Positions 37,159 through 45,383 of a stretch of 64,000 bases of DNA are shown in pieces. Each line of letters opens with the position of its first letter. Within the stretch, counting starts at the first letter, position 1. Source of the stretch: Methanothrix soehngenii GP6 (GTDB taxonomy: Archaea; Halobacteriota; Methanosarcinia; Methanotrichales; Methanotrichaceae); contig NC_015416.1 in the NCBI RefSeq assembly GCF_000204415.1, positions 186,001 through 250,000 of the forward strand, given 5' to 3'. Under the pieces are notes generated by a model that had not been told where the DNA came from, did not search any database, and saw only the letters and a program-made list of their open reading frames with translations. The position numbers and the translations under genes were made by a program.

Positions 37159-37971
37159 ATGACTAGGATGGCTCTTTATCCAGAGGCTATGGACGCCAGG
37201 ATCAACATCGATGACGGTGGAAGGGGTGGATTGCCGGTGGTATTTGTCCATTCCCTTGCTGGAAATGCATCCCAATGGTCCATGCAGCTCGATCACCTCC
37301 GGAAGGAGCGAAGGGCGGTGGCCTTTGACATGCGGGGGCATGGCCTGTCCGATCCGTCATCCGATGGCGACTACTGGGTGGAGACTCTGGCCAAGGATAT
37401 CGGTATTGTGGCACGGTCCCTGGATCTGGAGCGGTTCGTCCTGGTAGGGCACAGCCTTGGTGGCTCGGCTTCAATTGCCTATGCAGGTGAGAATCCCCAT
37501 AGAGTCAGAGGCTTATTGCTTGTCGATCCATCCGGTGATGGAAGAATGTTGCCCAACGAGATAATAGAGCCGTTTCTAGCTGCGCTGCAGTCCGATGATT
37601 ATCTGCGCACTATCAGGGATTACTGGCAGACGTTGCTGGTTGGGTCCAGCCAGGTGGTTGCAGAGAGGGTTATGAACGATCTGTATGCCACCCCGAAAGA
37701 CGTGGTTGCAGGTGCCTTCAGGGATAGCCTCTTATTCGATCCGGTCTCCATGCTCCAGCGTTATTCAGGGCCAAAGCTCTCTGTTATAAGCCACCTGAAT
37801 GATGCCCCCTACAGCCTTCATAATCTTGTTTCTGATCTTCCTTTCATAAAAATATCAGGCACCGGACACTGGCTGCAGATGGACCAGCCTGACGAGTTTA
37901 ACTGGATTCTCGATCAGTTCCTCCACTCAGTGGAAGGCGGGGGAAAATGGCCGGAGGATGGCGGAAGATGA
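37159..37971 (+). CDS. Alpha/beta hydrolase
   Basis: 270 aa. Oxyanion region VVFVHSLAGN, nucleophile elbow GHSLGGSAS, and catalytic histidine in GTGHWLQMDQP. Serine hydrolase of the epoxide hydrolase/esterase clan; substrate unknown. The stop overlaps the proC start as ATGA, so it is coupled to that gene. Confidence 0.87.
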   Translation: MTRMALYPEAMDARINIDDGGRGGLPVVFVHSLAGNASQWSMQLDHLRKERRAVAFDMRGHGLSDPSSDGDYWVETLAKDIGIVARSLDLERFVLVGHSLGGSASIAYAGENPHRVRGLLLVDPSGDGRMLPNEIIEPFLAALQSDDYLRTIRDYWQTLLVGSSQVVAERVMNDLYATPKDVVAGAFRDSLLFDPVSMLQRYSGPKLSVISHLNDAPYSLHNLVSDLPFIKISGTGHWLQMDQPDEFNWILDQFLHSVEGGGKWPEDGGR

Positions 37972-38780
37972 CCGCATACGGCATCATTGGCACCGGCCAC
38001 ATGGGAAGCATGCTGGCAGAAGAATTTATTCGCAGGGGAGCGATCAATAGAGAGGAGCTCTGGGTGAGCAATCGCAGCCAAGAGAAGGCCCAAAAACTGG
38101 CAAGAAAGCTGGGAGTGCGAGCTGCAGATAACCTGAAGGTGGCGGAAAGGTCGGATGTTCTATTCCTGTGCGTGCGGCCTGTGGACCTCAAAGGGGTAAT
38201 AGCTGAGACTAGTGAGCTGCTCACCCCGGAAAAGCTGATCGTATCGGTGGCAGTGGACTTTTCCCTCCGGCAGCTGGAGAGCCTATGCCGGGCCAGGGCG
38301 GCCCGGGCCATTCCCAGCGTCGCCAGCGGTAAAGGACTGGGAGTCACCCTTCTCGTCCTGGGAAGCGGTGCCTCAGAGGATGATAGATCTCTAGTCTTTC
38401 GGCTCTTCGGGTCCATTGGCTGGCCGGTGGAGGTGGCAGAGGAGCAGCTGGAGGTGCTATCCGATCTCACCAGCAGCGGGCCCGCGTATATATCTGCCAT
38501 CCTCAGGGAGTTCGCCCTGGAAGCCTCTATGCGGGGTGCAGGGGTGGATAAAGATCTGGCTGAGCAGTTGATCAAAAAGACACTGATTGGGACTGCGGCT
38601 CTCTTGGAGGATGAGAGCTTTGATGATCTGATTGCGATGGTGGCGACCAGGGGAGGGATAACTGAGGAGGGCGCAAAAGTGATCGAGGCCCTATCGCCGG
38701 AGATGTTCCGCCAGCTCTTTTCGGCGACCTCTGCCAAGCATCGGCTGGTAAAGGATAGGATAGGCAATGTGGAAGAATAG
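37968..38780 (+). CDS. proC: Pyrroline-5-carboxylate reductase-like protein
   Basis: 270 aa from the ATG at 37968 with GGAGGATGGC upstream. N-terminal YGIIGTGHMGSMLAEE binds NAD(P)H; the C-terminal helical domain has the P5CR signature region (LTSSGPAYISAIL and ATRGGITEEGAKVIE). It forms proline from pyrroline-5-carboxylate. The family signature is somewhat divergent, so a related imine reductase cannot be excluded. Confidence 0.85.
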   Translation: MTAYGIIGTGHMGSMLAEEFIRRGAINREELWVSNRSQEKAQKLARKLGVRAADNLKVAERSDVLFLCVRPVDLKGVIAETSELLTPEKLIVSVAVDFSLRQLESLCRARAARAIPSVASGKGLGVTLLVLGSGASEDDRSLVFRLFGSIGWPVEVAEEQLEVLSDLTSSGPAYISAILREFALEASMRGAGVDKDLAEQLIKKTLIGTAALLEDESFDDLIAMVATRGGITEEGAKVIEALSPEMFRQLFSATSAKHRLVKDRIGNVEE

Positions 38781-38992
38781 CTGATGCGCTTGATTGCGCT
38801 GATCGCATTGCTATGGGTCATTGCATCCAACCATCTCACTATCCCTCATTTCTTCCTCGCGGCGGAATGTCTCACTCGCGTGAGACGGCGGTTTATTTTG
38901 GCTTTAATGATATCGATTTTATTGATAAAGTGGCCAATATTTGCCATTCACTCAGTTGGGCACTGGATGCCCAGGTCCACAAAGCCGAAAAG

Positions 38993-39028
38993 TTTAAATA
39001 GCAATTTATACACTAACTAGAAGTTAGT
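38993..39028 (+). promoter_or_regulatory. cdc48 promoter with HSR1-type heat-shock operator
   Basis: TATA-like TTTAAATA (38993-39000) and TTTATA (39005-39010) are followed by the perfect palindrome ACTAACT-AGA-AGTTAGT (39012-39028). Its core fits CTAAC-N5-GTTAG exactly, the site reported for the heat-shock regulator HSR1 upstream of the hsp20-cdc48 operon in Archaeoglobus fulgidus. The operator lies at the expected transcription start, so repression by steric block is likely. Confidence 0.7.
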
Positions 39029-39045
39029 AATATCAGGTATCAAGA

Positions 39046-39102
39046 ATGATGATTCGAGAATTGATGTGGCCCAGGGAATGCAGGCCTCAAAGGATGAATT
39101 GA
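39046..39102 (+). CDS. Short leader ORF 1 (18 aa) upstream of cdc48
   Basis: MMIRELMWPRECRPQRMN, preceded by AGGT seven bases upstream. The stop overlaps the start of the next short ORF as TGATG. May be a leader peptide or chance; the linked TGATG junctions suggest translational coupling toward cdc48. Confidence 0.3.
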   Translation: MMIRELMWPRECRPQRMN

Positions 39103-39239
39103 TGGCGAATCGCCCTCTGGGGAGATCAACCTTTTACAGAGGAATGAGCGCCCCACATGATCAGAATAGCAGCAAAGATAAAAATCATTCAGGTGACGAC
39201 AAAGCAAGAGAATACAAAAAAAGAAATGGAGGATTCTGA
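39102..39239 (+). CDS. Short ORF 2 (45 aa) coupled to cdc48
   Basis: A polar, basic 45-residue ORF (starts [14 protein letters not shown]) with AGGATGA upstream. Its stop overlaps the cdc48 ATG as TGATG. No family recognised and no membrane segment. Could be a small partner of Cdc48 or merely a translational coupler; real protein status uncertain. Confidence 0.4.
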
Positions 39240-41410
39240 TGGCAGGAGATATCACGCTTAAGGTAATTGAAGCCCGTCCCACTGATGTGGGAAGGGGCAT
39301 CGCCCGGGTTGACCCGCAGGTATTGAACGATATGGGCTGGCAGGCAGGCGATGTAGTCAGCATTCAGGGAAAGAAGAAGACTGCGGCTTTGGTCTGGCCT
39401 GGATACCCTGAGGACACTGGCCATGGCGTCGTGCGCCTGGATGGAAACACCCGCCGAAATGCTGGAGTTAGCATCGACGACAAAGTACCCCTGAAGATCG
39501 CTCAGGCCACTCCCGCAGAGGTTGTGCTTTTCGCTCCCACCGTTCCCCTTCGGATCACCGGCGGGGAGGAGTATCTTAAGAGGTATATGGAAGGGCGGGT
39601 CATCACCCGTGGGGACATAATTGAGATCTCTGTGATGGGCAGAAAGATAGAGCTCATGGCCACCCGGGTCGCTCCCCCCAAGGAAGGAACGGTGATTGGC
39701 GAGCGGACGAGGATCGATATCACCGATAAGCCGGCCAAGGAGGAGAAGGTCGGACCGCGGGTCACCTATGAGGACATCGGCGGCCTCTCTGCAGAGATCA
39801 AGAAGGTCAGGGAGATGATTGAGCTTCCCATGAAGCACCCTGAGCTCTTCGAGCGGCTGGGGGTTGAGGCTCCCAAAGGCGTTCTGCTCTATGGTCCGCC
39901 TGGCACGGGCAAGACTCTGCTGGCAAAAGCACTGGCCTCAGAGACCAATGCCCACTTCGAGACCCTGAGCGGCCCGGAGATCATGTCCAAGTACTATGGC
40001 GAGTCGGAGGAGAAGCTCCGCCAGCTGTTCAAGACGGCAGAAGAGCAGGCACCTTCGATCATCCTCATCGATGAGATCGACTCCATCGCCCCCAAGAGAG
40101 AAGAGGTAACGGGCGAGGTGGAGCGCCGGGTGGTAGCTCAGCTTCTGGCTCTGATGGACGGCATGGAGACGCGCGGAAAAGTGGTGGTCATCGCTGCTAC
40201 CAACCGGCCGGACTCCATCGATCCAGCCCTGCGCAGGCCGGGAAGGTTCGACCGGGAGATTGAGATCGGGGTTCCCAACAGGCAGTCGCGCCTGGAGGTA
40301 CTGCAGATCCACACCAGAGGAATGCCCCTGGCCAAGGACGTGAACCAGGAGAAGTTCGCTGATGTAACCCACGGATTCGTGGGAGCGGATCTCGCTGCTC
40401 TGGCCAGGGAGGCGGCTATGCGCGCCATCCGCCGGGTGCTGCCGGAGATCGACCTGGAGGTCGAGTCCATACCGGTGGAGACGCTCAATAAGATCGAGGT
40501 CAACAACGAGGACTTCCTGGCAGCCCTGCGGGAGATGGAGCCTTCGGCCATGCGTGAGGTGATGGTCGAGTCCCCCAATGTGCATTGGGATGAGATCGGC
40601 GGACTGGCTGAGGTCAAGCAGCAGCTGATAGAGTCTGTGGAGTGGCCCCTTACCTATGCCAGGCTCTTCGAGCACATGGACGCCAAGCCGCCCAGAGGAA
40701 TCCTGCTCTACGGCCCGCCTGGAACGGGCAAGACCATGCTCGCCAAAGCGGTAGCCACGGAGAGCCAGGCCAACTTCATCAGCATCAAAGGCCCGGAGTT
40801 CCTGAGCAAGTGGGTGGGCGAGTCGGAGAAGGCAGTGAGAGAGACGTTCCGCAAGGCCAGGCAGGCTGCACCCTCGGTGGTCTTCCTGGATGAGATCGAC
40901 TCCATCGCTCCCTCCCGTGGAGGGATGAGCAGTGACTCTCATGTCACCGAGAGGGTGATCTCTCAGATCCTGACTGAACTGGATGGCCTGGAGTCCCTGA
41001 ACGACGTGATGGTGATCGCGGCCACCAACCGGCCGGATATCATCGATGCCGCTCTGCTCCGTCCCGGAAGGTTCGACCGGCTGATCGAGATCAGCTTACC
41101 GGATGAGGAGGCCAGAAGGGAGATCTTGAAGATCCACACCTCGAAAAAGCCCCTGGCGGATGACATCGACCTGGATGATATTGCCAAGAGGACAGACAAG
41201 TTCTCAGGCGCAGATCTTGGTGCGGTGGTCAATGAGGCGGTTATGCTCGCCATCCGTGAGTATGTCCTGAGCGGCCAGTGCAAGGCGGACGAGGAGATCT
41301 GCGAGTATAAGGTTTCCAAGAAGCATTTCGAAGAGGCCTTAAAGAAGGTCACGCCTACGGCTATAGAGCTGGACCTGTACAAGAGATTCGCATCCGGCAA
41401 AGCGGCTTGA
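39239..41410 (+). CDS. cdc48: Cdc48/VAT AAA+ ATPase
   Basis: 723 aa. N-terminal double-psi barrel and four-stranded domain (residues 1-~165) are followed by two AAA modules: Walker A GPPGTGKT at 219-226 and again at about 492-499, Walker [14 protein letters not shown] and [13 protein letters not shown], then the arginine-finger region [11 protein letters not shown] and [10 protein letters not shown]. It unfolds proteins for degradation by the proteasome. Lacks the long C-terminal tail of eukaryotic p97. Heat-shock control is suggested by the operator upstream. GGAGGA lies before the ATG. Confidence 0.97.
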
Positions 41411-43504: not shown

Positions 43505-45383
43505 CCTGAACAGCGTGGCACTTACTCCCCACTAGAATTTATCCTTCTGTTAATGAGCCATTTCTGAAACTGATTTTCCAAAATAAGCCACTATATTAAA
43601 TTATCCTCGTACCGAAATATACTTATGCTTGTAGGGAGTATACTCCCCACATGGCTATCAAAAGGCGCAAGCGAGGAGGTCATGTTTACCTTGAGGAATA
43701 CAAAACCACAAGGGAAGAGGGAAAAGTAGTCAGTAAGTTCGTGCGCTATATTGGACGAGAAGATGCCAAATCCGATACCTATAAACCTCGTAAGAAGGTC
43801 ATAGATCGACTTGATTTGTCCAGATCATATCGAGCAGGTGACGTTCAATTGCTCTGGTCGATTGCCGAGGATCTTGGTTTTATCCAGATAATCGACGGAA
43901 TCTGCTGCTCCGATTCAGGCTTAAACGGCGTCTCTCCAGGGAAATTGCTGACTGTTTGGGCAATAAACCGTGCGATCGACCCAGATAGTGCTACTATGCT
44001 TGAGCGATGGGTGCAAACTACAGATCTCCCGCATCTTGCAGGTCTTCCCGCAGATGTCTTCACAAAGGATGCATTCCTTTTTGCACTTGATTTCGTATGC
44101 AAGGAAGACAAGACCGCAGCTTCTATTACCGATTTGAGTTCGAGGATAGATGACGCTCTGTACCATAGATGGCGAAAAAGCCATCCACTCCCTGCCGATG
44201 AAAAAGAGACATTAGCTTACGACCTTACAACTTTGCTGTTTTTCGGAGTTAGTTGCCCTCTTGCTGAGCTTGGATATAATCCTGATAGAATTCGTCGGCG
44301 TCAAGCTAACCTCGCGATTCTTGTGTCAAAACGAGATCGATATCCTCTTTCGCATTTTGTGTACAACGGAAGCCGTCACAGCATATCCACAGTGAAAAAC
44401 CTGCTGAATCGCTTATCTAAAATGGCCATTGAACCTGGAACTCTAATATGGGATCGCGGAAACGTATCAAAAAAACATGTGCAAATGGTAGATGAGTCTG
44501 GGTGGAAACTGATATGCGGCGTACCTAAAACATCGAAAGAAGCAAAAGAAATCATCGGCAAAACCAAAATCCCAATTAGCCCTGATTCGCTTGTCCGCAG
44601 CAGTCATGCGGGGCATATCTATGCGATAAAGACAGAAAATGAACTTTTCGGAAAAGAACGCTCTACAATCGTTTATGCCAATCGCGAAAGAAGCGTGAAG
44701 GATGCTGATGCAAGAAATGAAGCGCTTTCCGTAATCGGAGAAAGCCTCAACGAGCTAAGCCAGACTGGAAAAGACTGGTCCGAAAAACGACTCCATGATC
44801 GAATAAAAAACATAGTCGGACAGTGGTCTGGCTTTATTGATGCCAGCGTGCGCAGAAAAAAAGACGGGCCTAGGATTGAATGGAGTTATGATCGACAGAG
44901 ACTCCGATCTGCGGAAAAATATGATGGAAAATGGCTCATATTATCTACTGATTACTCATTAAATGCAAATAATGCTGTGAACATGTATCTGGAAAAGGAC
45001 TTCATAGAGAAAGTCTTTCGTGTTTTGAAAACACATGAAGAGGTCGAACCTGTTCGACACAGATTGGAGCATCGTGTGAAAGCTTACCTTTTCGTCTGCA
45101 TGCTTGCATATCGATTGTTGGCTGTGCTTCAATGGAAGCTCAAAGAGGCTTCTGGCAAAGAAGGATCTTGGGAGAGCGCGGATATGTTTTTGCGGGATCT
45201 GGCCGTGGTGCAAAGAGTCGAGGTTCGATTTGGCAACGAGGTCAAAACATGGTATCTCAATATGACCGATTCTGTTTCTGCAAGATTAAAGGAGATCGGA
45301 ATGAGTGCGTTATTCAAAGAGGAGACTCGACTCGTCGGCTAACGAGAGATGTAGGGAGGAAGTCATCGCTGATCAGGTCATTA
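43499..45383 (+). mobile_element. IS1634-like insertion sequence with 6-bp target duplication
   Basis: Element 43505-45377 (1873 bp) flanked by TCATTA at 43499-43504 and 45378-45383. Left end CCTGAACAGCG, right end CGCTGATCAGG: 10 of 11 bases are inverted repeats, with further similarity inward (ACTTACTCCCC versus ACTTCCTCCC). One transposase fills it. Both ends and duplication are intact, so insertion is recent. It interrupts the Nmad3 gene. Confidence 0.9.
43651..45342 (+). CDS. IS1634/IS4-superfamily transposase
   Basis: 563 aa DDE transposase. The N-terminal YLEEYKTTREEGKVVSKFVR is typical of the IS1634 group. Catalytic-core segments are ETLAYDLTTLLFFG (first Asp), GTLIWDRGNVSKKH (second Asp) and the C-terminal EKDFIEKVFRVLKTHEEVEP (Glu in the Y/D-x-x-R/K-x-x-E-like region). 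The frame is uninterrupted, so the element may be active. Codons are less GC-rich than in neighbouring housekeeping genes. Confidence 0.92.
   Translation: MAIKRRKRGGHVYLEEYKTTREEGKVVSKFVRYIGREDAKSDTYKPRKKVIDRLDLSRSYRAGDVQLLWSIAEDLGFIQIIDGICCSDSGLNGVSPGKLLTVWAINRAIDPDSATMLERWVQTTDLPHLAGLPADVFTKDAFLFALDFVCKEDKTAASITDLSSRIDDALYHRWRKSHPLPADEKETLAYDLTTLLFFGVSCPLAELGYNPDRIRRRQANLAILVSKRDRYPLSHFVYNGSRHSISTVKNLLNRLSKMAIEPGTLIWDRGNVSKKHVQMVDESGWKLICGVPKTSKEAKEIIGKTKIPISPDSLVRSSHAGHIYAIKTENELFGKERSTIVYANRERSVKDADARNEALSVIGESLNELSQTGKDWSEKRLHDRIKNIVGQWSGFIDASVRRKKDGPRIEWSYDRQRLRSAEKYDGKWLILSTDYSLNANNAVNMYLEKDFIEKVFRVLKTHEEVEPVRHRLEHRVKAYLFVCMLAYRLLAVLQWKLKEASGKEGSWESADMFLRDLAVVQRVEVRFGNEVKTWYLNMTDSVSARLKEIGMSALFKEETRLVG

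Follow-up and report, generated by a model that had tools for sequence, protein, structure and literature searches.

The question raised by this locus of Methanothrix soehngenii GP6 is whether a perfect palindrome in front of a cdc48 gene is the operator of a heat-shock repressor, which regulator would bind it, and which other genes would share its control. Methanothrix is an important acetate-using methanogen of digesters. To our knowledge, no more than two dedicated heat-shock repressors of archaea have been characterized, both in hyperthermophiles. The site of HSR1 from Archaeoglobus fulgidus is given as CTAAC-N5-GTTAG in PMC9133787, where binding is proposed to repress at normal temperature and to be lost on heating. 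The regulons of Phr and HSR1 comprise an sHSP and an AAA ATPase, without the thermosome, according to PMC10653856. None of the literature found on Methanothrix and heat shock, searched in titles and abstracts with few subscription journals, appeared to treat such a circuit, and the string CTAAC-N5-GTTAG was not met beyond one source in a search of similar coverage.

The palindrome in the cdc48A promoter

The window, i.e., the whole stretch of 64,000 nucleotides that was analyzed, corresponds to C1:186001-250000 in a genome of 3,026,645 bp distributed over two contigs (chromosome, 3,008,626 bp). Reading of the sequence places an exact CTAAC-N5-GTTAG at 39013-39027, 226 bp 5' of the cdc48 ATG at 39239, and the elements preceding the gene follow the order CCGAAAAG-TTTAAATA-GCAATTTATAC-ACTAACTAGAAGTTAGT. 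The earlier note had described a match to the Archaeoglobus HSR1 site, embedded in a longer perfect palindrome and placed just past a TATA box, and each of these observations is borne out. The motif equals the published site (PMC9133787) and belongs to the 17-bp palindrome ACTAACT-AGA-AGTTAGT (39012-39028), which begins 12 bp past the box at 38993-39000. Its arms (39012-39018 and 39022-39028) are 7 nt each and 100% complementary around a 3-bp centre, as found by repeat search. The features of the locus are the following:

38986-39000, + strand: BRE (CGAAAAG, 38986-38992; BRE-like by sequence) and TATA box (TTTAAATA, 38993-39000) of the cdc48 promoter
39012-39028, no strand: predicted HSR1-type operator, the palindrome containing CTAAC-N5-GTTAG, overlapping the expected transcription start
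39028-39040, no strand: degenerate second operator unit in 14-bp register, TAAT-N5-GTAT, proposed from the family scores at +14 and the conserved columns
39029-39238, + strand: cdc48 5' leader, about 80-210 nt across the family and without conservation
39239-41410, + strand: cdc48A, CDC48-family AAA ATPase of 723 aa (TIGR01243; Pfam AAA twice, CDC48_N, CDC48_2)

The cdc48A product scores 1044.8 bits against TIGR01243 (cut-off 802.65), and its closest named relative, from a Methanotrichaceae MAG, is 82% identical. A terminator-like stem, GTCTCAC-TCGC-GTGAGAC, followed by a T-rich stretch, lies at 38868-38887, 3' of the upstream gene (ORF 37947-38780), and sets that gene apart from the cdc48 promoter. 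On the other side, 3' of cdc48, a 563-aa ORF with an IS transposase-like look occupies 43651-45342. Reading of the sequence did not reveal an operator of the Phr type, composed of TTTA, TGGTAA, and AAAA elements surrounding the start site; TGGTAA is absent at 38990-39050.

The number of motif copies is unremarkable. The exact pattern occurs once in the window, against none in 100 shuffles, and this is also the only copy in the 3.03-Mb genome, where the reversed pattern used as a control occurs four times. Allowing one mismatch, the motif is found at 10 places and the control at 90, so the motif is depleted in the genome. Since neither the exact nor the one-mismatch scan revealed an excess over the control, the argument rests on position and conservation.

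Conservation was followed in 50 Methanotrichaceae genomes, 42 of which contain the exact motif, in 51 copies altogether. Comparison of motif positions with the coordinates of cdc48 and hsp20 and with locus contents assigned 48 of these copies to proteostasis genes, namely cdc48A (38, including two at a contig end or assembly gap that were assigned through the flanking sequence), hsr1 (4), hsp20 (4), and an HtrA-like protease (2); the remaining three lie elsewhere. Two more cdc48A promoters carry a 9/10 match (L117, L138). In one genome (G014), cdc48A appears to be missing although its promoter is present, because a run of N representing an assembly gap (L175:2160-2420) begins inside the leader. 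The HtrA/DegP-like serine protease genes of two genomes (L171:2038-3129 and L182:1780-2875; G003 and G016) have the exact site about 40 bp before the start, and no close homologue of this protease was found in the GP6 genome.

The comparison of 23 cdc48A promoters that are less than 70% identical in pairs over 105 bases delimits the element. Within ACTAAC and GTTAGTA, each column shows at most one exception, positions two and four of the five-base spacer favor A, and the flanks hold nearly zero information. An A-rich stretch followed by TTTAAATA is conserved between roughly -26 and -13 relative to the site, and so are the columns +15 to +18 and +24/+25. The distance from operator to start codon ranges from 95 to 226 bp across the family. 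When 25 cdc48A promoters were scored for a second unit, the best offset was +14, with a mean of 5.4 of 8 matches, weaker than in the hsr1 promoters described below.

The regulator and its predicted targets

The earlier note had proposed a search for an HSR1 homologue, and the genome encodes one. The gene at C1:2457314-2457952 specifies a winged-helix protein of the ArsR type, 213 aa in length, which matches Pfam HTH_5 with E 1.1e-14. Among NCBIfam models, that of the Phr heat-shock regulator fits it best, with E 7.8e-26 and 90.8 bits, far below the 320-bit cut-off. Among solved structures, Phr (2P4W) is the best relative, with E 6.8e-19 from the single sequence and 4.4e-33 from the profile, and it is also ranked first by Foldseek for a model whose pTM is only 0.41. 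An alignment with Archaeoglobaceae regulators of hsr1-cdc48-hsp20 operons showed that the HTH region is well conserved, including the segment around PK-x-V/I-I-x-H-L. The gene, here called hsr1, overlaps a second cdc48 (cdc48B, C1:2457943), which in turn overlaps lonB (TIGR00764, above cut-off), forming an hsr1-cdc48B-lonB operon with hsr1 first.

Sites also precede the regulator gene itself. The hsr1 promoter of GP6 contains two degenerate 8/10 sites, ATAACCTAACGTTAC and CTAACCATAAGTTCA, 14 bp apart and just past the TATA box, an arrangement consistent with autoregulation. Several relatives have an exact or 9/10 site at the equivalent place; most hsr1 promoters of the genus and family have imperfect ones. 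In 43 hsr1 promoters, the best position for a second unit was again +14, with a mean of 6.7 of 8 matches versus 2.2 overall.

The earlier note had also proposed to look for further copies before hsp20, thermosome, or proteasome genes; one was found before hsp20 and none before the other two. Among the nine other one-mismatch places, a 9/10 site at C1:1669008 lies right past the TATA box of the hsp20 gene at C1:1669054 (PF00011 and NF041800, above cut-off), the only one of the four hsp20 genes in the genome with such a site. Across family loci, this site retains at least 8 of 10 positions in 24 of 30 and at least 9 in 21 of 30; stretches of 200 bp drawn at random from family loci reached 9 as their best score once in about 2,000, with the exact sites by which loci had been selected set aside. 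No site of at least 9/10 was found near the three other hsp20, four thermosome, and two proteasome genes in any locus examined, and two 8/10 matches near genes of these classes were not taken as operators. The absence at thermosome genes agrees with the published Phr and HSR1 regulons (PMC10653856).

An additional target is probable from sequence comparison. The gene at C1:464540-465037 (L163:1551-2048) encodes a conserved 166-aa protein with a HEYIHSLG (HExxH) motif, and it is preceded at C1:464490 by a 9/10 site, GTAAC/CTAAC-N5-GTTAG/GTTAC, that recurs in 22 of 22 family loci. Searches of Pfam, NCBIfam, and the PDB returned no match or relative for the protein, and its structure model has low confidence; it is possibly a small stress protease.

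The proposed circuit and competing readings

A common operator is thus present at these promoters. Because the genome encodes the regulator and similar sites precede hsr1, an hsp20 gene, and the cdc48 genes of dozens of relatives, the palindrome is very probably (roughly 85%) the operator through which the HSR1/Phr-family winged-helix repressor C1:2457314-2457952 controls cdc48A, with binding, repression, and the heat signal carried over by analogy from A. fulgidus HSR1. At normal temperature, an HSR1 dimer would occupy the site between the TATA box and the transcription start, which is presumed from the usual archaeal spacing to fall at about 39019-39024. So placed, the dimer would keep polymerase from being recruited or from starting transcription. 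Under heat stress, HSR1 would be released and cdc48A would be made. The same repressor would also control its own operon, hsr1-cdc48B-lonB, and hsp20 (C1:1669054), and probably the HExxH protein gene at C1:464540.

The operator might be as described while the signal is not chiefly heat. In a mesophile, which Methanothrix likely is, general protein-folding stress caused by oxidants, ammonia, acetate, or oxygen could take its place, and the targets, cdc48, lonB, hsp20, and the HtrA-like protease, are general proteostasis genes. However, heat is the signal for the only characterized members of the family, Phr and HSR1 (PMC9133787 and PMC10653856), and proteomics of Methanonatronarchaeum connects this family, together with CDC48, to high temperature (PMC5852551). 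A signal of this general kind is considered rather unlikely.

The mode of action may also differ among promoters. In all 22 loci of the HExxH gene, the site sits immediately 5' of the TATA box, which raises the idea that HSR1 activates some promoters or works there in a dual role. This is improbable, as a site covering the BRE can repress too, and cdc48A, hsp20, and hsr1 all carry the site 3' of the TATA box, where archaeal repressors act.

Many ArsR/MarR-type dimers bind palindromes of 15-17 bp, and binding by the HSR1 homologue is itself deduced, so that another regulator could in principle recognize the element. Yet the site matches the published HSR1 site exactly and co-occurs with the promoter of hsr1 itself in Methanosarcinia, Archaeoglobaceae, and Methanoplasma, and recognition by a different regulator is accordingly given very little weight. 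The idea of a chance sequence, or of a hairpin in the leader RNA, to which a genome-wide count no higher than the control might point, is largely refuted by the family distribution, by divergent promoters in which only the palindrome is conserved, by its position astride the expected transcription start, and by the comparable one-mismatch site at C1:25001 before a glutaredoxin-like gene (C1:24718), which behaves as a chance site, being kept in 1 of 30 loci, and was rejected.

With HSR1 retained as the predicted repressor, the comparative evidence places such a circuit, its targets listed by name, in Methanothrix, and yields a small set of promoters plus a single protein as candidates for tests. 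The circuit type is already known; some novelty lies in how the genes are scattered, in the involvement of a second cdc48 paralogue, in tandem units 14 bp apart, and in the HExxH protein as a probable target.

Paralogues and the history of the operon

The earlier suggestion of a conserved cdc48 circuit stands in one respect, the retention of the site before cdc48 across the family, and needs correction in another, the identity of the gene. In a quick tree with SH-aLRT support only, cdc48A of the window joins a cdc48 from Methanoperedens (support 95), within the half of the tree that also holds Thermoplasmatota and Bathyarchaeota, and cdc48B groups with the cdc48 of the Archaeoglobaceae HSR1 operon and that of Methanocellales (support 99). 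As they fall in separate clades, cdc48A of the window is not the orthologue of the Archaeoglobaceae operon gene; descent from that gene is a trait of the A. fulgidus operon and not of the operator. The palindrome itself is real, and with this correction the earlier interpretation is supported by the sequence comparisons. As far as these go, cdc48A and cdc48B are distinct paralogues, and the former, which is not linked to hsr1, was brought or kept under the same predicted operator.

Other lineages retain linked forms. In the loci examined, hsr1 has an exact site past its TATA box in Archaeoglobaceae (L024, L026) and Methanocellales (L034), both with hsr1-cdc48-hsp20, in Methanoperedens (L018) with hsr1-hsp20-cdc48, and in several further Methanosarcinia families. 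In one hsr1 promoter of Methanoplasma, TTAAC-N5-GTTAG occurs with a second unit behind it. The presence of the cdc48A-type paralogue inside the hsr1 operon of Methanoperedens suggests that a linked set was scattered in Methanotrichaceae while the operators were retained, and the family would show how a regulon is carried once its operon breaks up. A fuller scenario, tentative and put at slightly below even odds, holds that pieces of an ancestral hsr1-cdc48-hsp20 operon kept or gained operators, that a second ancient cdc48 paralogue and the HExxH protein were recruited, and that HSR1 may act in cooperative units spaced by 14 bp, whose number and quality would set promoter strength.

The likeness to A. 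fulgidus HSR1 (AF1298) extends to the operator sequence, its TATA-proximal placing, the cdc48 and (predicted here) hsp20 targets, and an hsr1-cdc48 operon with a site in its own promoter. GP6 differs in that a second cdc48 paralogue and hsp20 are unlinked, each with its own operator, in that the hsr1 operon ends in lonB rather than hsp20, and in having the HExxH gene as a probable new target. The Phr protein of Pyrococcus furiosus (PDB 2P4W) belongs to the same regulator family (arCOG01684 according to PMC5852551) and likewise has hsp20 and AAA ATPase targets. The differences are that the target of Phr is a region of 29 bp containing the elements TTTA, TGGTAA, and AAAA (PMC9133787), and not the CTAAC-N5-GTTAG palindrome, and that the GP6 regulator reaches only 90.8 of the 320 bits in the NCBIfam Phr model. 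In Methanonatronarchaeum thermophilum, an HSR1-family regulator and CDC48 with adjacent locus tags (AMET1_0853-AMET1_0852) rise together at high temperature; the accessible text of PMC5852551 does not mention an operator.

Methanosarcina-like genomes (L250, L251, L258, L263) keep hsr1-cdc48-hsp20 with an hsr1 promoter devoid of CTAAC-N5-GTTAG, so the circuit can be rewired; the loss suggests a changed specificity or a rewired control. In seven Methanomicrobiales loci (L043, L046, L050, L053, L055, L062, L063), the cdc48 promoters have a conserved CTAAC-N4-GGTAAA just past the TATA box, which recalls both the HSR1 palindrome and the TGGTAA element of Phr.
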